This document shows positions 15,411 through 34,630 of a stretch of DNA of 34,630 nt, piece after piece. The DNA lies in the NCBI GenBank assembly GCA_028873845.1, contig JAPPNO010000034.1, forward strand, positions 1 through 34,630. The letters run 5' to 3'. Position 1 is the stretch's first letter. Each line of letters starts with the position of its first letter. The position numbers and the translations under genes were made by a program. Origin of the DNA: Gemmatimonadota bacterium. Its GTDB lineage: Bacteria > Gemmatimonadota > Gemmatimonadetes > Longimicrobiales > Gaopeijiaceae. The notes beneath the pieces are model-generated. The model saw nothing but the letters and a program-made list of their open reading frames with translations. It ran no database searches and was not told the origin of the DNA.

Positions 15411-15437
15411 GGCTGGGGCGTCTCGCTGGGAGTGGTT

Positions 15438-15475
15438 GTCAACTGCGGATTACTTTTTGTCAACCCTAGGTGACA
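15438..15475. promoter_or_regulatory. Shared 38-bp operator-like site A, upstream of the M28 peptidase
   Basis: Two tandem 18-bp dyads, counted from the T at 15437: TGTCAA-N6-ATTACT and, 21 bp on, TGTCAA-N6-GTGACA. It aligns without gaps to sites B, C and D in this window. It sits 27 bp before the peptidase ATG, where a repressor or activator would overlap promoter or leader. The minus strand also carries two TTGACA hexamers here, which could serve as -35 boxes. Confidence 0.6.
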
Positions 15476-20953: not shown

Positions 20954-21183
20954 GATCGGCTATCTCTTTCTCCGGTGACGCAGGTAATGACGACGGGTCG
21001 ATCGGGCCCGGCAATGGCACGCCGGCGGGTCACAGGCGGGAGTGTAGGCGCGTGCGGGTTGGAGCGCAATGCGGCGCGGCGCGGTCGATTTCGGGCACAT
21101 GTGATGGATTCGCCGGACTCTTGAGCGGGCCGGGACCGGGGAGATCAGGGGGTAGGGGACCGGCGATCGTTTCGGCAGTCTGT

Positions 21184-21221
21184 GTCAATTGCAGTTTACA
21201 TTTTGACAAGTATCGTGTACA
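21184..21221. promoter_or_regulatory. Shared 38-bp operator-like site B, upstream of the vWA protein gene
   Basis: Two dyads 21 bp apart, counted from the T at 21183: TGTCAA-N6-TTTACA and TGACAA-N6-TGTACA. It aligns without gaps to sites A, C and D. It lies 84 bp upstream of the vWA start and 230 bp from the divergent sterol-reductase start, so the vWA gene is the more likely target. Confidence 0.6.
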
Positions 21222-25933: not shown

Positions 25934-26942
25934 ATGGTGTCCGTTTCTGCTATCAAAACAGTGCCAAACGTGTCGCTACGCCATGATCACGTGCGGCGCG
26001 CCGTGGACGATCGACGCCTCCCGGGTCAATTCATCCTCACCGGATCCGCCGTGCCGGCCGACGACGCGACCCGCCACACGGGGGCCGGACGCCTGACGCG
26101 CCTTCGCATGCGCCCGCTTTCGCTGTTCGAACTCGGGCGCTCTTCAGGCGAAGTCTCGCTGGCGGGCCTTCTGGACGGGGAGCATGTCTCGGCAGGCCGG
26201 GCGGTGATCCCGCTCGACGATCTGGCCGAGTTGATCTGCGTCGGCGGGTGGCCGGTCAACCTGGGACGCAGCACGCGGCTGGCACTTCGCGCCAACGTGG
26301 ATCATCTGGACGAGATCCGCCGCCTGGACATTGCGAATGGAGACGGCAGGCGGAGAGACCCGGTGAGAGTGGGAATGCTGCTTCGGTCCCTTGCCCGCAA
26401 CGTCGCCACCCCCGCGGCGACCGCGACCCTCGCCTCCGACACCGGCGAAGGCGTGTCCGCGATCACGGAGCACACCGCGGCCGGGTACCTGAGGGCGCTC
26501 GAGCGGATCATGATGGTCGAGAATCAACCCGCCTGGCCCACGCACCTCAGGTCGAGGTCGGTTCTGAGACGCAAACCGGTTCGACACCTCACGGATCCTT
26601 CGCTAGCGGTGGCCGCCGTTCGGGCGACGCCCGCCCGCCTGCTCCGCGACCTCGACTTTCTGGGGCTCCTCTTCGAGTCGATGGGTAGTGCGGGATCTGA
26701 GGGTCTACGCCCAGGCCGCGGACGCCGAGGTGTTCCACTACCGGGAGAAGGGGGGGTTGGAAGTGGACGCGATCGTGCAGGCGAACGACGGTCGCTGGGC
26801 GGCTTTCGAGGTCAAGCTGGGGGAGGGGAGGGTGGATGAGGCTGCGCGCAATCTGCGGAGGTTGGCGGCGCGGGTGGATCCGGAAAGGATGGGGGAGCCG
26901 GCGGCGCTGGGGGTGATTCCGGTGGGGGGGTTGGGGCCGTAG
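25934..26942 (+). pseudogene. DUF4143-type AAA ATPase, 5'-truncated and frameshifted
   Basis: The plus-strand frame carries RRAVDDRRLPGQFILTGSAV, then HTGAGRLTRLRMRPLSLFE, both standard in ATP-binding DUF4143 proteins, and later RHLTDPSLAVAAV and LGLLFESM. The N-terminal Walker A/B ATPase domain is missing. At 26683-26685 a GGG run appears to carry one extra G: dropping one base joins FESM to VVRDLRVYAQA and continues through GGLEVDAIVQ and AAFEVKLG to the stop at 26942. Both defects make a functional product unlikely. The frameshift alone could be a sequencing error, but the missing N-terminus cannot. Confidence 0.85.
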
Positions 26943-27011: not shown

Positions 27012-28032
27012 TCACATTCTGTCAGCGCCATCAGAAAGCCCGCCGTCCCTGGCCAGATTGAGCAGCTTCGGGAAGACCCACAGTGCGGCCCTACGCCCGG
27101 CGGGCGGGACGAGCTCCCGTAGAACGCCGCCCTCCCGCAGCACCGTCAGAACGCGGCGTGCCGTCGACGCCGGAGTCCCTGCGTTCCGCCCGAAGTCGGT
27201 GCTCGCAAAGATCGGCCTCTCGAACACCCAGTCCACCGCCAGCGTCGCGTACTGCGACCGGGTCATCCTGGGAATTCGGTTCCTCAGGTCGTCGTGCAGC
27301 TCCAATATCCCCTTCGCCTTCGCCAGGTTCTCCTCCGCCTGGGCGCGCACGGCCTTGAGGAAGAAGAGAGTCCATGCCGTCCAGTCGTGGTCGCGCGACA
27401 CCCCAAGGAGAGAGTCATAGTAGTCGTTCCGGTTTGCCTCCAGGAATCCGCTGACGTAGAGGTGCGGCCGCTCCATCATCTTCCACTGCCAGAGCAGCAG
27501 GGGGACGAGCATGCGGCCCAGGCGACCGTTCCCGTCCAGAAAGGGATGCAGCGCCTCGAACTCGGCATGGAGCACGGCTAACTGAACCAGGCGGTCCGGC
27601 ACACCGTTCGCGCCTTCGTTGGCATACCTTTCCCACCGGCCCATGGCATCCGGGATCTCGTGGGCGGCAGGGGGAACGAAGCGGGCCTCCTCGATTCCGC
27701 ACCCGGGGGGACCGATCCAGTTGGGCGTCTTCCGGTACTCACCCGGCGACTTTCCCGTCCCCCGCACGCTGTCCAGAAGCACTGCGTGGGCCCTGCGAAT
27801 CACGCGGCCGCATACCGGAAGCGTCTCCAGCATCAGCTCGGCCTCGTGCATCGCCCGGCGGTAGTTGAGGATCTCGTGGATGTCCTCCCGGCGCTCCGGC
27901 GACTCGGCGTCGGCCCCGGCCTCCACTTCCAGCACCTCGGTCATCGTCGCCTGTGTCCCCTCGATGCGCGACGAGAGCACGGTCACCCGTCGGTGGAAAC
28001 GCGCCCGCGTGATAGTGGACCGGAGGCATCAT
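27012..28032 (-). pseudogene. fic gene with 5' internal deletion and frameshift (core Fic domain intact)
   Basis: A good start exists at 28032/28029 (GAGGAGG before ATGATG), and its first residues PPVHYHAGAFPP match the start of Fic proteins of this type. After about 15 codons the frame is lost. The conserved core resumes in another frame at 27986 with SSRIEGTQATM, only 43 bases after the ATG at 28029, whereas family members have roughly 60 codons there. The 324-residue frame from GTG 27986 keeps the inhibitory motif (Ser5...Glu9-Gly10) and the AMP-transferase motif HPFLDGNGRLGR (His147). Fic enzymes transfer AMP from ATP to hydroxyl side chains of target proteins. Expression would need initiation at the GTG; otherwise it is dead. 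C-terminal winged-helix-like region is present. Confidence 0.75.
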
Positions 28033-28176: not shown

Positions 28177-28289
28177 TGATTGAATTGGCATCGGCGGCTG
28201 ATCGGCTCGCCGGTGGGTCGGACGGGGTGCATTCGGAAAGCGACGTACGGCGTTCGAGTCAAGCATCGGGGTGCTGCGGGACAGGCTGT

Positions 28290-28327
28290 GTAATGTGAAG
28301 TTTCCAATGTGGAAACTGTACTTTACA
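28290..28327. promoter_or_regulatory. Shared 38-bp operator-like site C, upstream of the AlbA_2 gene
   Basis: Two dyads 21 bp apart, counted from the T at 28289: TGTAAT-N6-TTTCCA and TGGAAA-N6-TTTACA. The centre also forms an exact inverted repeat AGTTTCC-N5-GGAAACT. It is the most symmetric of the four sites. It lies 174 bp upstream of the AlbA_2 GTG and 257 bp from the old fic start. Confidence 0.6.
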
Positions 28328-28501
28328 TGGGGGGACGGGCGTGGCGTGTGCCGAGAATGACATTGATGAGGTTCCAAACCCGATGCCTTAGCTTGATTCG
28401 GTGAACCGGCCGGGAATGCCCGATGGAAGTTGGTCCGACATGTAGGTTGGACCATCGGCGAAGGTCCCCGCGCCACCGGAGCCACTCAGGGAGCAAGGGC
28501 C

Positions 28502-29731
28502 GTGTCTGTACACCTTTCGGAAGCCGAGATCCCAACAGCCCTCTCCCAGGGGGAAGGGCAGTTCCGCGAGTTCAAGTCGGCTTGGGACCGGAGTGCGGGC
28601 TCGCCCCGGAAGCTGAATTGGAAGACCCTGCGGGACAAGATCGCCGATGCGGTTGCGGCGTTCGCCAACGCGGACGGCGGCCTCCTCTTCGTGGGCGTGG
28701 AGGACGACGGACGTCCGAGCGGCCACGGCTACTCCGACAAGCATGTGGAGGGCCTGCTGGCGGTGCCGGACAGCCGGCTTCGGCCGGGAGTCCGCTGTAG
28801 GACCGCCCGAGTCGAGATCGATGGCAAGGAGGTGCTGGTGTTCGATGTGCCTCAGTCCACGGAAGCTGTCATGGTGGAGGCCGATGGCTTCCCATACCGG
28901 GTTGGTGCCGGGATTCAGCTGGAGCCGCAGGAACTGATCAACCAGCGGAAGCAGGCGCTGCGGGTGGTGGGCTACGAGCAGCGATTCCGGGCGGAGGCCA
29001 CACTTGATGACCTCGATCTGGAGTTGGCAGGCCGATTCCTGGACCGGACGCCGGTGGGCAAGCGCGCCATTGAGGAGGCCTTGGCGTACTACGGCCTGAT
29101 CGACCGCTACCTCGGGCAGTGGAAGATCACCAATGCGGGGCTCCTGCTTTTCGCTCGCCGCCCGGCGCTCAAGTGGCACCCGAGGGCGGGGATCAGGGTT
29201 TTCCGCGTCGCGGGAAGGAAGCGGCTCCACGGACGTCGGCGCAACGTGACGCAGGTCGGGCGCGCGGACCCTCCGCTGGCCTTGTCTCTGACGGAAGCCA
29301 GAGCACTGGCCGGGGCTCAGGTTCGGCAGAGCGAGCGGCTGAACGGGCTCTACTTCGAAGGCGTGCCGGAGTACCCGGAGTTCGCCTGGCAGGAGGTACT
29401 GGTCAACGCCATTGCCCATCGCGACTATGAGGTCACCAGCCGCGAGACGGAGGTCTGGTTCTACGACGACAGGGTCGAAATCTCCAATCCGGGGAACCTG
29501 ATTGCGCCCGTGACACTCGAGCGCCTCCGGGAGGGCGGTCGCGCCCACGGAACGAGGAACCCGATGCTCGTCAGGGTGCTGGCGGAGGTCGGCGCCATGC
29601 GGGACGAGGGAGAAGGCATCGCACGCATCTTCGACGAGATGGCAGACCGGCGGCTGCCCGATCCGGACATTGAGTGCGATAGCGGTCTGTTCACCTTCAG
29701 GCTCTTCGCGGAAGGGGGCGGTTCCGGGTAG
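28502..29731 (+). CDS. AlbA_2/Schlafen-type domain ATP-binding protein
   Basis: A 409-residue protein from GTG 28502 (AGGGAG nine bases upstream); a TTG at 28430 would add 24 residues but has no good ribosome site. The N-terminal AlbA_2 domain shows GEGQFREFKSAW, FANADGGLLFVGVEDDG and a following beta domain. The C-terminal half has the helicase-related/GHKL-like ATP-binding part: EVLVNAIAHRDYEV, DDRVEISNPGNL and MRDEGEGIARIFDEM. This architecture occurs in putative transcriptional regulators and in several anti-phage systems; the function here is unknown. It is convergent with the PD-(D/E)XK-like gene, six bases apart. Confidence 0.88.
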   Translation: MSVHLSEAEIPTALSQGEGQFREFKSAWDRSAGSPRKLNWKTLRDKIADAVAAFANADGGLLFVGVEDDGRPSGHGYSDKHVEGLLAVPDSRLRPGVRCRTARVEIDGKEVLVFDVPQSTEAVMVEADGFPYRVGAGIQLEPQELINQRKQALRVVGYEQRFRAEATLDDLDLELAGRFLDRTPVGKRAIEEALAYYGLIDRYLGQWKITNAGLLLFARRPALKWHPRAGIRVFRVAGRKRLHGRRRNVTQVGRADPPLALSLTEARALAGAQVRQSERLNGLYFEGVPEYPEFAWQEVLVNAIAHRDYEVTSRETEVWFYDDRVEISNPGNLIAPVTLERLREGGRAHGTRNPMLVRVLAEVGAMRDEGEGIARIFDEMADRRLPDPDIECDSGLFTFRLFAEGGGSG

Positions 29732-29737
29732 GACCCG

Positions 29738-31570
29738 CTACCACGGTCCGCCGGCCCGCTCCCTCATCCACGCCATCATGCCCTCGACGAGTTCCTTGAA
29801 CCTTTTTCGCAGCCGACGATTGGGGCGCAGGACGCGCCGCATTCCCTTCGCCAGGAGATGGTTCTTCATGGTGCTGTCGCGGTAGGTGCCGTTCTTGATT
29901 CGCTCCAGAAGCAGGTCGGCGAGACTGCCGCCCCCAGCCATGTACTCTTCCAGCTGCTCGAGCTCCGACACAGAAAGCACCTGCAGTGGGCGTGCCTTGC
30001 GGTGCTTCAGCGCATTGCGATCGGCGATGACACCTTCGATCGTCCGGTAGAAGAACGGCTCCACGGGGATCGTTTCGAGGGTGACCACCAGCGGCAGGTA
30101 ACGCGTTACGGTCTCTGGCCTGACCAGATCCGCCAGATTCCCGCTCTCGACGGCCAGTATCGTGTCGTCGAACTGCTCAGCCGCCTTGCCGAAGATGTTC
30201 CCAACCTTGCTCCGCAGCCCATCGAGGTCTCCCCCGGCCCGGACTCCGTAGGGGAGTAGCGTGGCCTTGCATTCGAGCAGCAGAACCGTGTCGCCGTAGA
30301 GTACGGCGCCGTCGCACGCCTTCATCCCGGCGGGGATGCGCTCGCGAAGTGACTTCCCGTCCGCGTAGCGTCCAGCTTCGTGCGGAAGGACCCGCCGGAG
30401 CAGAGCCTCGACGTAGTCCTCGAACACATGGCCTATGTGGATGAAGTACTCGCGACGCCGGGCGTCGTCATTTCGCTTGCTGGGCCGGAGAAAGACGTGG
30501 TGCAGCCCGGTAGTGATCTTCCAGCGGAGGAGCCGCACCGAAGGACAGTACAGACGCCCCTCAAGGCGGACCAGGGGTGAGCGGTCCAGCGGCGCGATAT
30601 CGTACGGCCGCAAAGAGCCCGGTCCACAGCCTCGTTCGCGCAGTGTCGCCTTTGCTTTGCCTGCATCCGCTGCGAACAGGGTGGTCAACGCGTTGATTTC
30701 GCCATCGGAGATGTTGAGAGCCTGCATGTAGGCTTGGAGGCTCAGCGGTCCAGGTGGTTGATCTGACTTGGGGTCAATGGTCTGCCAGTTCGCAAGCAGA
30801 GCGAGTCCCATTCCCCAGGCGAAGTCGGGATCAAGTCCCGTAATCTCCCGAAAGCGAGCTCGAAGATCGACGGCGCTATCGTCGTCGGGCCGATGGTCCG
30901 AAAGGTAGAGGTCGTGCGTTCGGGCCAGAGATTCCGCGAAGTCTTCCGACGCGTTGAACGTCCCGTTCATCACGATGAACCTGAGCCAAGCGTCCCGGTT
31001 GGCGCGTGACCGAAAGTCAGGCGGGCCAGCCAAGTCCTCTTCCCGGTCGATCAGATCAGCGGCCATGATCAGCGCCTCACCGATCGGCTCGACCGATCCG
31101 CTCGACCTCTCAGTCACATGCGGGCAGACCAGCAGCGCGATCTTCGCGATCGCGACCACCTGCTGTTCACTGAAGAACCACACCGGGTCGGTCACCCCCT
31201 CGGGCTTCAGCCTCTCCCGGTAGGCTTGGAAAGCGCGCCCGACCCTGTCGGGGTCCTGGAACAACGCCTGGATGATCCGGCGCTGGCCTTGGAGCGGCTC
31301 ATAGAAGTTGAGCAAGGCGCTGACGCCACCCAACACGAGCAGCACCTGCCCAAGCCCAAATCCCGACAACCGATCTGCCACATCCTTCCAGGAAGCTCGC
31401 TCCCCATAGACGTCGTGCCACGTGCCACGGACCTGAAACCACTCCATTCCCGAGGGCCGGTCTGGCTTCGCGAGGCGATCCGGCAGAAAGAGGCCTGTCT
31501 CTGTGGAACGTGTGAATCCACGTGCTACGGTCGACTCTGGGCCGGGAGATCTGCGCGAGGGCACGGTCAT
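29738..31570 (-). CDS. Large protein of unknown family with PD-(D/E)XK-like nuclease motif
   Basis: A 610-residue soluble protein I do not recognise. Residues about 380-440 carry a nuclease-like arrangement: Glu384 in HVFEDYVEALL, Asp420 in KACDGAVLYGD and Glu433-Cys-Lys435 in VLLLECKATLLP, fitting the E...D-x(12)-ExK active site of PD-(D/E)XK enzymes. The N-terminal 350 residues are mostly helical and have no motif I can name. The C-terminus is basic (RRVLRPNRRLRKRFKEL), consistent with nucleic-acid binding. ATG 31570 and Met42 (31447) are both possible starts; the region between looks coding. Convergent with the AlbA_2 gene, it could be part of a defence locus, but the pairing is not proof. 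Confidence 0.6.
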   Translation of the reverse strand: MTVPSRRSPGPESTVARGFTRSTETGLFLPDRLAKPDRPSGMEWFQVRGTWHDVYGERASWKDVADRLSGFGLGQVLLVLGGVSALLNFYEPLQGQRRIIQALFQDPDRVGRAFQAYRERLKPEGVTDPVWFFSEQQVVAIAKIALLVCPHVTERSSGSVEPIGEALIMAADLIDREEDLAGPPDFRSRANRDAWLRFIVMNGTFNASEDFAESLARTHDLYLSDHRPDDDSAVDLRARFREITGLDPDFAWGMGLALLANWQTIDPKSDQPPGPLSLQAYMQALNISDGEINALTTLFAADAGKAKATLRERGCGPGSLRPYDIAPLDRSPLVRLEGRLYCPSVRLLRWKITTGLHHVFLRPSKRNDDARRREYFIHIGHVFEDYVEALLRRVLPHEAGRYADGKSLRERIPAGMKACDGAVLYGDTVLLLECKATLLPYGVRAGGDLDGLRSKVGNIFGKAAEQFDDTILAVESGNLADLVRPETVTRYLPLVVTLETIPVEPFFYRTIEGVIADRNALKHRKARPLQVLSVSELEQLEEYMAGGGSLADLLLERIKNGTYRDSTMKNHLLAKGMRRVLRPNRRLRKRFKELVEGMMAWMRERAGGPW

Positions 31571-31767: not shown

Positions 31768-34203
31768 TCACGACACCGCCCTCCCCCGCACCCGCACCAC
31801 GAACAACCCCTCCCCCCAGCTCGACACCACCACAACCCCACTCTCAAAGAACGGGTAATTACTCCAAGCCCCCCCAAACGCCGGCAACCCCGCATCATCC
31901 GGCACCGTATCGAAGTACCCGATCTCCACCGGATTCTCCACATCGCTGATGTCCAGCACGCGCAGCCCGCTCATCAGGTTCGCCTGGTACAGCCGGTTCC
32001 CGCGCACGTACTGGTTGTGGTCGATCGTCCCCGTCTCGGCGAAGTGCTCCTTCAGCAGCAGCGGATCGTCCAGGTCGGCCACGTCCCAGATGAGCGTCCG
32101 GGTCCGCTCCACGCTGCCCTCCACCTCGTCCCCCTCGTCGCCCATGAAGAAATAGCGGTGGTCCTCGGTCAGCCAGCCCTGGTGCGCGTAGGCCACGTTG
32201 GGATACTCGCCGCGGGCGACGGCGACGGGGTTTTCGCGGTCGGTCACGTCGGCGATGCTGAGCGCGGTCTCGTTGGCGCCGAAGCAGATCTCGCGGCCCT
32301 GGTAGTCCTCGTCGGGACCCCGGTAGGTGACGCACTGGGGGTCGTGGGAGTAGCCGGTGCGCGCTCGGCCGGTGGTGCCGTCGGCGAAGCAGCCCAGGAA
32401 GACGGGCTCGGCGGGAGTGCGCACGTCGATCATGTGGAGGCCGCCGCCGCAGGTCTCGCCGCCCATGCTGCTGCCGACTGCGTACGCCGTCCCCGTCTCC
32501 TCGTTGATAACGATGTTGTGGGCGCTGTGGATGCCGTCGTAGCGGGCGGTCTCCGCGAAGGTGACGGGCGGGCCCGAGGCGTCCCGCAGTTGGGTGAGGT
32601 CGAAGATCTGCACGCCGTGTGCCCCGGCGCCGTCGGCGACGATGAAGGCGTGGTCGCGGTACACCTTGATGTCGCGCCAGAGGTTCTCGGTGGCGCCCTC
32701 GGTCAGGGGGAGTTGGCCGGCGTAGCGGGGGTTGGCGGGGTCGCTGAGGTCGACGAAGGCCGTGGCGTCGGAGCGTCCCACCAGCGCCCAATCCCTGCCG
32801 GTCACGGGGTCGGTCCAGCCCCAGATGTCGTTGAGGATGGTGCCCGGATCGGCGCCCAGCGCGTCGAGCGGCACGAAGGCGACCAGGTCGACCTGGGAGC
32901 AGTCGAACGGACCAGTCGCGCCGTCGGTGCAGGGGGCCTCCCCGCCCATGACCGCGTCGAGGGCGCGGGTGGACTCGCGCAGGGTGGTGCCTTCGACCCA
33001 GGCGCCGTCCTCGCGCTCGAAGACGACGGCGGCGCCGAGCCGCAGGTCCGCATTCGAGGCCGCGACCACCGCCACGTCGCCGCGCAGGGCGACGAAGGAG
33101 CCGAAGAGGGCGCCGCGGTTGAATCCGGGTGCGGGGATGGTGTTTTCGCTCTCCAGCGTCATGGCCCCCTCCACGACGCGGAAAACCTGTGTGCCGCCCG
33201 TGCCCTCGCCCGCTCCGCTCGCGCCGACCCATGCGCTGCGGCCGTCGAAGGCCACCGCCGAGCCGTAGCCGGCGGGGCCCGCCTCGGGGAAGAAGAGGCG
33301 GGCTGTCTCGTTCCACTCGCCGTCGTCGCTCCTGGTGAAACGGGCTGCCGCGCCCGCTCCCTCGTTCGCGCCGGGAGCCCCGGCGAGGACGGAGGTGCCC
33401 GACGCGGTCAGGCTTGTGCCGAAGGCGTCGCCGCCGCGGCCGTCGGAGAGCGACAGGACCGCGATGGGAGAAGGGCCGGTGGCCGGTGAGCCGGCGTCGA
33501 AGACGTGGACCGCGCCCCGGTCGTCACGGGTCCCGGGCGCTCCGACGAAGAGGAGGTCGCCGGTAAGGGAGAGGGACGCGCCGAAACGGTCGATGGCGGA
33601 GAGGATGGGGGAGGGGAGAAGCGTGGCGGACCCGCCTGCCGCCGGGAACCGCAGCACGGCGCCGGGGCCTGCGTCGGACGGCGCACCGAGGTAGACGGCG
33701 TCGCCGGAGAGCACGACGGAGGTACCCGCGCCACGGATCTCCCCGTCGGCCGGAGGCACGAACTCGATCGTCTGCGCCCACGCGCCATCGTTGCCCCGCT
33801 CGAAGATGTAGGCGCCGCCCCGATCCTCACCACGCCCCGGCGAGCCAACCAGCAACCGGTCCCCGTCGACCGCCAGCGCCGCCCCGAACTCGTCCCCGAT
33901 CTCCACATCGTCGCCCGTGATGATGTACGCGAACTCCCAGCCTTCGTCCCCTCGCTCGAACACGTAGACACTCCCCGGCGACGGGTAGATCGCACCCGCC
34001 ACCCCCCCGCCGGTCCGCCCCACGAAGATCTCCCCATCACCGATCGCGATCGCGGCCCCGAACCCGGCGGCCCTCCACGGCGCCTCGTGCTCGGGCGAAA
34101 AGGCCTGACCACCCAGGGGACCGGATGGCACGAGGAGCCCCACGGCACTCGAAACCGTGGCAAGAAAAACGCTCGTGGCGGACGAGAAGACTCTGGACCT
34201 CAT
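31768..34203 (-). CDS. Secreted FG-GAP / choice-of-anchor B family beta-propeller protein
   Basis: An 811-residue exported protein with a signal sequence (about 1-33). Residues about 40-410 hold FG-GAP-like repeats of the form FGAALAVDGDRLLVGSPG and FGASLSLTGDLLFVGAPG, an integrin-type propeller. Residues about 450-805 are a choice-of-anchor B domain: WGWTDPVTGRDWALVGRSD, LWRDIKVYRDHAFIVADGAG, GGETCGGGLHMIDV, CFGANETALSIADVTD and VAYAHQGWLTEDHRYFF. Such proteins are extracellular or cell-surface with unknown ligands. The start has AAGGGAG eight bases upstream. Operator site D lies 65 bp before it. Confidence 0.92.
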   Translation of the reverse strand: MRSRVFSSATSVFLATVSSAVGLLVPSGPLGGQAFSPEHEAPWRAAGFGAAIAIGDGEIFVGRTGGGVAGAIYPSPGSVYVFERGDEGWEFAYIITGDDVEIGDEFGAALAVDGDRLLVGSPGRGEDRGGAYIFERGNDGAWAQTIEFVPPADGEIRGAGTSVVLSGDAVYLGAPSDAGPGAVLRFPAAGGSATLLPSPILSAIDRFGASLSLTGDLLFVGAPGTRDDRGAVHVFDAGSPATGPSPIAVLSLSDGRGGDAFGTSLTASGTSVLAGAPGANEGAGAAARFTRSDDGEWNETARLFFPEAGPAGYGSAVAFDGRSAWVGASGAGEGTGGTQVFRVVEGAMTLESENTIPAPGFNRGALFGSFVALRGDVAVVAASNADLRLGAAVVFEREDGAWVEGTTLRESTRALDAVMGGEAPCTDGATGPFDCSQVDLVAFVPLDALGADPGTILNDIWGWTDPVTGRDWALVGRSDATAFVDLSDPANPRYAGQLPLTEGATENLWRDIKVYRDHAFIVADGAGAHGVQIFDLTQLRDASGPPVTFAETARYDGIHSAHNIVINEETGTAYAVGSSMGGETCGGGLHMIDVRTPAEPVFLGCFADGTTGRARTGYSHDPQCVTYRGPDEDYQGREICFGANETALSIADVTDRENPVAVARGEYPNVAYAHQGWLTEDHRYFFMGDEGDEVEGSVERTRTLIWDVADLDDPLLLKEHFAETGTIDHNQYVRGNRLYQANLMSGLRVLDISDVENPVEIGYFDTVPDDAGLPAFGGAWSNYPFFESGVVVVSSWGEGLFVVRVRGRAVS

Positions 34204-34268
34204 GGCGATGCTCCCTTCATGGCTGGGTGAGCTTCAAAATCCATCGCCCCGCTGCCGGACGCAAACCA

Positions 34269-34306
34269 GTCAACTGCACATTACATTATGGAAATCGGAG
34301 TTGACA
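34269..34306. promoter_or_regulatory. Shared 38-bp operator-like site D, upstream of the FG-GAP protein
   Basis: Two dyads 21 bp apart, counted from the A at 34268: AGTCAA-N6-ATTACA and TGGAAA-N6-TTGACA. It shares the GTCAACTGC start with site A. It lies 65 bp upstream of the FG-GAP protein ATG, in an A/T-rich patch. Confidence 0.6.
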
Positions 34307-34349: not shown

Positions 34350-34630
34350 TCACCGCGCCCGCTCGCTCATCCATGTGGGGATTTCGCGCCGACCATGCAG
34401 GACACGCCACACGTCGATGTGGCCACTCCCTTCCATGTAGAAGACGATTTGGGGATGGGACTCGAGCGCCCAAAACCTCAGCCCTTCCAGGTTCAGCTCA
34501 TGTCCATATCGAGGCGACCCCGATGCGGGATGGCGGGCGATGTGCCGCAGAGCCACCTCGAGCGCATCGACGAAACCGAGCGCGACATCCGCTCCAGCCT
34601 CTTCCGCATAGTGGGCCACCGCATCGTCCA
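34350..34630 (-). CDS. ParE/RelE-type toxin of a type II toxin-antitoxin system (5' end outside window)
   Basis: About 93 residues are visible and the frame stays open to the right edge (the first complete residues are DDAVAHYAEEAGADVALGF), so the true start is outside. The ParE-superfamily pattern is clear: a helix FVDALEVALRHIARHPASGS, then SPRYGHELNLEGLRFWALES, IVFYMEG, and the C-terminal HIDVWRVLHGRREIPTW. ParE toxins poison gyrase; RelE relatives cut mRNA in ribosomes. The antitoxin gene would be expected beyond the right edge. Nothing after the toxin on this strand looks like one. Confidence 0.85.
   Translation of the reverse strand, partial: DDAVAHYAEEAGADVALGFVDALEVALRHIARHPASGSPRYGHELNLEGLRFWALESHPQIVFYMEGSGHIDVWRVLHGRREIPTWMSERAR

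Follow-up and report, generated by a model that had tools for sequence, protein, structure and literature searches.

A convergent gene pair of a GapS1-like nuclease and a shortened BREX-type Schlafen protein in Gemmatimonadota, a candidate mobile anti-phage cassette

For GapS1 (GAPS1), PMC12774648 refers to Mahata et al. 2024, and for bacterial Schlafens PMC12839542 refers to a preprint by Taboada et al. 2025. A protein of the Klebsiella phage ST437-OXA245phi4.1 is termed GAPS1-like in the accessible part of PMC12774648. By its place and length we took gp49 to be this protein; with 393 bits against the GapS1 model it scores as a true GapS1. Schlafens are linked to BREX systems: in the available portions of a 2026 BREX survey (PMC12839542), RNases of the Schlafen type that carry a minimal histidine kinase and a wHTH appear as BREX-linked effectors. 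Neither the Schlafen family nor its occurrence with BREX is therefore new.

Here we describe a locus in which a distant relative of GapS1 and a Schlafen protein are encoded tail to tail. The window, i. e. the whole stretch of Gemmatimonadota DNA that was analysed, is 34,630 nucleotides long. The forward-strand gene (28502-29731) encodes a protein of 409 residues with SLFN_AlbA_2 and HATPase_c_4 domains, a candidate RNase-type effector or sensor judging by Pfam matches, conserved residues and dN/dS. The reverse-strand gene (29738-31570) encodes a GapS1-like, predicted PD-(D/E)XK nuclease of 610 residues, assigned by its match to the NCBIfam model NF047931 (antiphage GapS1), its predicted fold and its conserved residues. 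Both are complete frames in the window. They converge, and the ORF calls bear out the preliminary description of this DNA, according to which the genes end six bases apart: 6 bp (29732-29737) lie between the two stop codons, which leaves no room for a separate terminator. A junction hairpin serving as shared terminator was rejected, as the hairpins folded no better than shuffles (z -0.08 to -1.46 in six stretches from five loci, with the window folded on both strands).

NF047931 was the sole NCBIfam match of the 610-residue protein (E 1.7e-12, residues 232-497), and no Pfam model matched it above cut-off. It scores 47 bits where the curated cut-off is 320 bits, and it is therefore to be called, on its sequence, a distant relative of GapS1 rather than a member of the family. 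It also differs in length (455 model positions versus 610 residues) and in having a convergent Schlafen partner. The cut-off was reached by none of the 395 genomes of the phylum. All seven further Gemmatimonadota proteins submitted to NCBIfam, paired and unpaired, matched the GapS1 model alone (E 0.01), and so did both plasmid proteins submitted (same threshold). Profile alignment of the nuclease family with gp49 gave an E-value of 2.3e-6 and a probability of 89.

The resemblance to gp49 includes the GapS1 active-site pattern, E...D...(E/D)xK, which the two share. Residues E384, D420, E433 and K435 were invariant in all nine aligned proteins, or in 11 of 11 with two rows from named contigs. 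When 17 sequences including gp49 were aligned, the first glutamate was kept in 16 (Q in one), the aspartate and the lysine in all 17, and the remaining acidic position was E in 16 and D in one. The preliminary description had drawn attention to an E-D-ExK geometry. The residues are indeed present as E384-D420-E433-x-K435, but a loose form of this geometry arises in 1384 of 2000 shuffles of the protein, so that we discarded the motif by itself as nuclease evidence. What lends it significance is its conservation, taken with the profile match to GapS1 and the outcome of the fold search.

The AlphaFold model of the 610-residue protein has a mean pLDDT of 50; block means between residues 381 and 580 range from 42 to 91 and mostly exceed 60. 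The predicted core comprises a helix with E384, strands 421-425 and 428-435, a helix at 449-475 and a strand at 490-497, and extends over approximately residues 378-584 (window about 29819-30439). Structure comparison placed N.BspD6I on top (Z 9.9, 163 residues, rmsd 3.6), and further PD-(D/E)XK folds were matched by the R.BspD6I small subunit (Z 9.5) and FokI (Z 8.9). Cleavage domains of the N.BspD6I/FokI type were thus the best matches (Z 8.6-9.9), with an identity of 10-16%; E418 and D456 of N.BspD6I, which are named in entry titles, have a spacing resembling that of E384 and D420. Upx (PDB 9wuf) was matched with Z 9.0 over 290 residues (206-591), i. e. beyond the nuclease core, but its chain has 1212 residues, identity is 7%, the rmsd is 4.7, and the match lies partly in low-confidence parts of the model. 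Foldseek alone was weak (best E 4.3e-3, also N.BspD6I), and comparing the nuclease alignment with PDB profiles returned nothing significant, with an McrBC-system chain at E 0.67. The documentation of the comparison tool notes that models lacking clear relatives often reach Z-scores of 7-8, and acetyl-CoA carboxylase made up six of the 50 rows; the nuclease claim therefore needs fold, motif and GapS1 homology together. Taken together they support the assignment as a PD-(D/E)XK nuclease, with a predicted core fold that has acidic residues and lysine as expected. The possible PD-(D/E)XK fold of the preliminary description is upheld in this respect, structure prediction and fold search both being nuclease-like.

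Nuclease homologues were found in 10 of the 23 genomes of the window's genus, and profile matches in 20 of the 395 genomes of the phylum, six of these being short and weak. Close relatives of the nuclease were not found in phages, and among IMG/VR viral contigs no close relative of either the nuclease or the Schlafen protein was confirmed. Four plasmid records carry relatives with 22-23% identity (Nostoc, two haloarchaea and Kovacikia); the annotation of the Nostoc and the two haloarchaeal plasmids names no Schlafen, most neighbours being 'hypothetical'. One further relative is borne by JAPPHB010000058.1, which is titled 'Gammaproteobacteria'. Its gene layout is identical to that of the G391 contig in the window's family, so title and placement are in conflict, by label or by binning. 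A relaxase gene adjoins the relative on this contig.

For the 409-residue protein, both domains matched above the Pfam gathering cut-offs: SLFN_AlbA_2 (PF04326) at residues 18-138 (E 1.6e-16, 61.3 bits versus a cut-off of 25.3) and HATPase_c_4 at residues 315-398 (E 2.2e-20). E18, E23, D68, D69 and residues of the ATPase region are invariant in 11 of 11 Schlafen relatives. Rat SLFN13 has, as given in excerpts of PMC5862951, a three-carboxylate site of E205, E210 and D248. E18 and E23 have the same five-residue spacing as the first two of these and may correspond to them; the AlphaFold model of the Schlafen protein (six sequences) had a pLDDT of 34 and was unusable for a structural match. The segment with D68 and D69 aligns to SLFN5, SLFN12 and the Schlafen chain of 5yd0. 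Hence the description as an AlbA_2 ATP-binding protein was right as to the domains and probably too narrow as to the role: given the conserved carboxylates and the kinship to BREX-associated Schlafens, an RNase-type effector is the more likely reading of the sequence.

The nearest other Schlafens are 64-65% identical over SLFN_AlbA_2 and HATPase_c_4, come from the same genus and adjoin BREX-type genes in the four loci examined (G017, G008, G014 and G022). In G017 and G008 PADLOC identified PglX, PglZ and BrxL on the proteins of the contigs L041 and L042; by clustering with these proteins, the neighbours in G014 are of the PglX, PglZ and BrxL types, and those in G022 of the PglX type only. None of the BREX-linked loci examined contains a GapS1-like gene. 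One of them also encodes a Dsr2-like SIR2 protein (445 bits, L041:1576-5262), with the PglX-type gene on one side and the Schlafen region on the other.

The paired Schlafens differ from the BREX-linked ones in length and in setting. Whereas the three intact BREX-linked proteins have 559-561 residues, the seven measured paired ones have 404-411, the value of 404 depending on the start selected by the ORF picker. Thus none of the seven has the extension of about 150-160 residues that follows the ATPase in the BREX-linked form (a wHTH in the portions of PMC12839542 available), and the missing part was not found nearby. Clustering of neighbouring ORFs revealed no BREX-type cluster beside the pair. 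BrxL at an identity of at least 83% occurs in six of the 23 genomes (G007, G008, G011, G014, G017 and G019). The genome of the window (G000) has no BrxL match; hence the paired Schlafen does not serve a BREX of that type there.

The preliminary description had called for co-occurrence analysis, and the genes are indeed linked in other genomes. In all eight congeners that carry this nuclease clade (G000, G007, G008, G009, G015, G016, G017 and G019) the Schlafen gene is adjacent and convergent, with 5-9 bp between the stop codons. Relative to the window, the nucleases of these loci are 65-100% and the Schlafens 75-100% identical; in G015 the contig breaks off within the nuclease gene, and a single in-frame stop interrupts the Schlafen of G007. 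Across the 23 genomes, no intact close relative of either protein was found apart from its partner, the only separated close Schlafen being a fragment in G019. By contrast, no such Schlafen lies beside the six distant nuclease loci, as judged by tblastn for G005, G021, G093 and G391 (for two of these on named copies of the same contigs) and by ORF clustering for G354 and G254. Since distant nucleases occur without a Schlafen, and BREX Schlafens without a GapS1-like gene, neither protein generally needs the other. All eight pairs are closely related, and their linkage may therefore date from one event.

The pair occupies several neighbourhoods. DNA shared with the window ends at about 28.36-28.54 kb and 31.51-31.55 kb in blastn comparisons, and the flanks beyond differ. 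The largest stretch shared with other pair loci (28361-31529, from blastn boundaries and upstream alignment) is taken as the mobile unit; it includes a conserved promoter-side region upstream of the Schlafen gene (28361-28501, upstream alignment). A slot next to the gene at 31768-34203 is common to the window, G009 and G016, and G019 keeps pieces of the surroundings. The stretches examined in G007, G008 and G017 contain no other window DNA, except for a palindrome-bearing piece of 0.16 kb in G017. The flanking gene is present at an identity of at least 82% in 13 of the 23 genomes, 10 of which have no pair DNA beside it (merely 1.8-2.0 kb being examinable in G002 and G004). This linkage in several neighbourhoods, the Schlafen-free distant nucleases and the longer BREX-side Schlafens suggest a mobile cassette in which a GapS1-like nuclease has been combined with a Schlafen of BREX type and reduced length.

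The interpretation that we prefer, and to which we give about even chances, is that this is a mobile anti-phage cassette in which a DNA-cutting GapS1-like nuclease and an RNA-cutting Schlafen are the arms of one module. The two genes would be kept and moved as a unit. The nuclease, a distant GapS1 relative with a PD-(D/E)XK fold, would cut DNA upon infection. The Schlafen-HATPase, of the BREX kind and devoid of the C-terminal extension, would cleave tRNA or other RNA once its ATPase part registers the infection, so that a single module would attack DNA through one protein and RNA through the other. We infer the DNA and RNA substrates, the ATPase as sensor and the union of the arms in one response; the anti-phage role probably holds, given homology and island context.

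The main rival is that the cassette holds two independent single-gene defence systems, brought together by one past event and travelling as one recombination unit of 3.1 kb. The evidence separates it poorly from a cooperating module; we regard it as plausible, though we would sooner expect it to be wrong. Distant relatives of each protein do occur without the other, and convergent genes cannot share a promoter and are no operon. Moreover, parts may have been exchanged separately: in the Schlafen DNA of the window and G017, the first approximately 160 codons are 90-100% identical and the next approximately 160 only 70-78%. Together with the palindrome-bearing flank shared with G017, this step is a sign of recombination. 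Independence fits less well with the lack of intact separated copies in the 23 genomes, with a spacing of 5-9 bp that is kept down to 65% nuclease identity, and with the uniform length of the measured paired Schlafens.

A closer form of cooperation, which we hold to be rather unlikely, would be a two-component system. The Schlafen, having lost its C-terminal regulatory part, would control the GapS1-like nuclease or be controlled by it, and one trigger would lead to destruction of both RNA and DNA. The tight convergent junction would then be a trace left when the Schlafen C-terminus and the BREX neighbours were replaced.

Transcriptional control by the Schlafen-HATPase, i. e. a DNA-binding regulator of the nuclease gene, seems very improbable. 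AlbA_2 Schlafen domains are described as DNA-binding in Argonaute operons in the part of PMC6299218 that was available. However, the nuclease promoter is 1.8 kb off, on the side of its gene that faces away from the Schlafen gene, the carboxylates E18, E23, D68 and D69 are invariant, and the C-terminal extension, the wHTH of the BREX survey as excerpted (PMC12839542), is absent. Upstream alignment of the pair loci also showed no conserved operator-like palindrome before the Schlafen gene. An 'operator site C' had been proposed there, and the palindrome itself is real: it has 39 bp (28289-28327), lies in the left flank outside the mobile unit and belongs to a family with the half-sites TGT(C/A)AA and TT(T/G)ACA. 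Degenerate copies are at 15437-15475, 21183-21221 and 34268-34306, and all four sites are intergenic. A loose pattern matched 24 times in the genome (one site counted on both strands) and not once in the reversed control. It recurs, however, in only one of the seven other pair loci (G017, between the Schlafen and a divergent 656-residue gene). As a member of a dispersed family it was rejected as the control site of the pair; its copies are probably either sites bound by a regulator or a dispersed repeat.

A role outside defence (in DNA repair or in maintaining mobile elements), or a remnant in decay, would agree with the state of the neighbouring genes, which had been noted as decayed Fic and DUF4143 genes. 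Domain searches found that the Fic protein (27012-27986, reverse strand) lacks about 60 N-terminal model positions, and by eye a Fic-N-like stretch lies upstream in a different frame. The DUF4143 ATPase (25961-26942, forward strand; ORFs and Pfam) is a remnant broken into two frames, while its homologue in G009 is intact (416 residues). Both genes lie outside the pair. The in-frame stop in the G007 Schlafen and the orphan fragment in G019 point in the same direction. Nevertheless, the frames are complete in the window, and dN/dS is well below 1 for both genes (Schlafen 0.10-0.24 in 21 pairs; paired-nuclease clade 0.13-0.34, calculated without the G007 rows, i. e. with eight of 36 pairs dropped, one further pair giving no dS). 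By these ratios both genes are under purifying selection.

The match to an anti-phage family and the restriction-system neighbours likewise speak against such a role or a remnant, which we consider improbable. In G017 the neighbours of the pair include genes for a type I restriction enzyme and a PDC-M33A-like protein, and in G008 an Eco57I-type methylase gene adjoins it; G093, in which the nuclease is unpaired, has a type I restriction gene as well. The accessory or defence-island setting proposed earlier agrees with these neighbours. Beside the G017 pair lies a block of three genes (L037:11186-15032) for proteins of 656, 270 and 360 residues, the first weakly similar to PADLOC PDC-M33A and the other two without PADLOC or Pfam match; the block is possibly an unrecognised defence operon. 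Near the end of the window, an ORF for a ParE-type toxin (34350-34619, Pfam E 1.6e-8) has a relative in the G019 copy of the region.

We found no publication on a combination of GAPS1 and Schlafen in a literature set with few subscription papers and bioRxiv preprints. With this locus the GapS1 anti-phage family reaches, as distant homology, into Gemmatimonadota, from whose MAGs most of the named relatives come. The pair also places a BREX-type Schlafen outside BREX, in a shorter form and linked to a nuclease gene. Should the proteins cooperate, it would offer a small natural example of an attack on RNA coupled with one on DNA.
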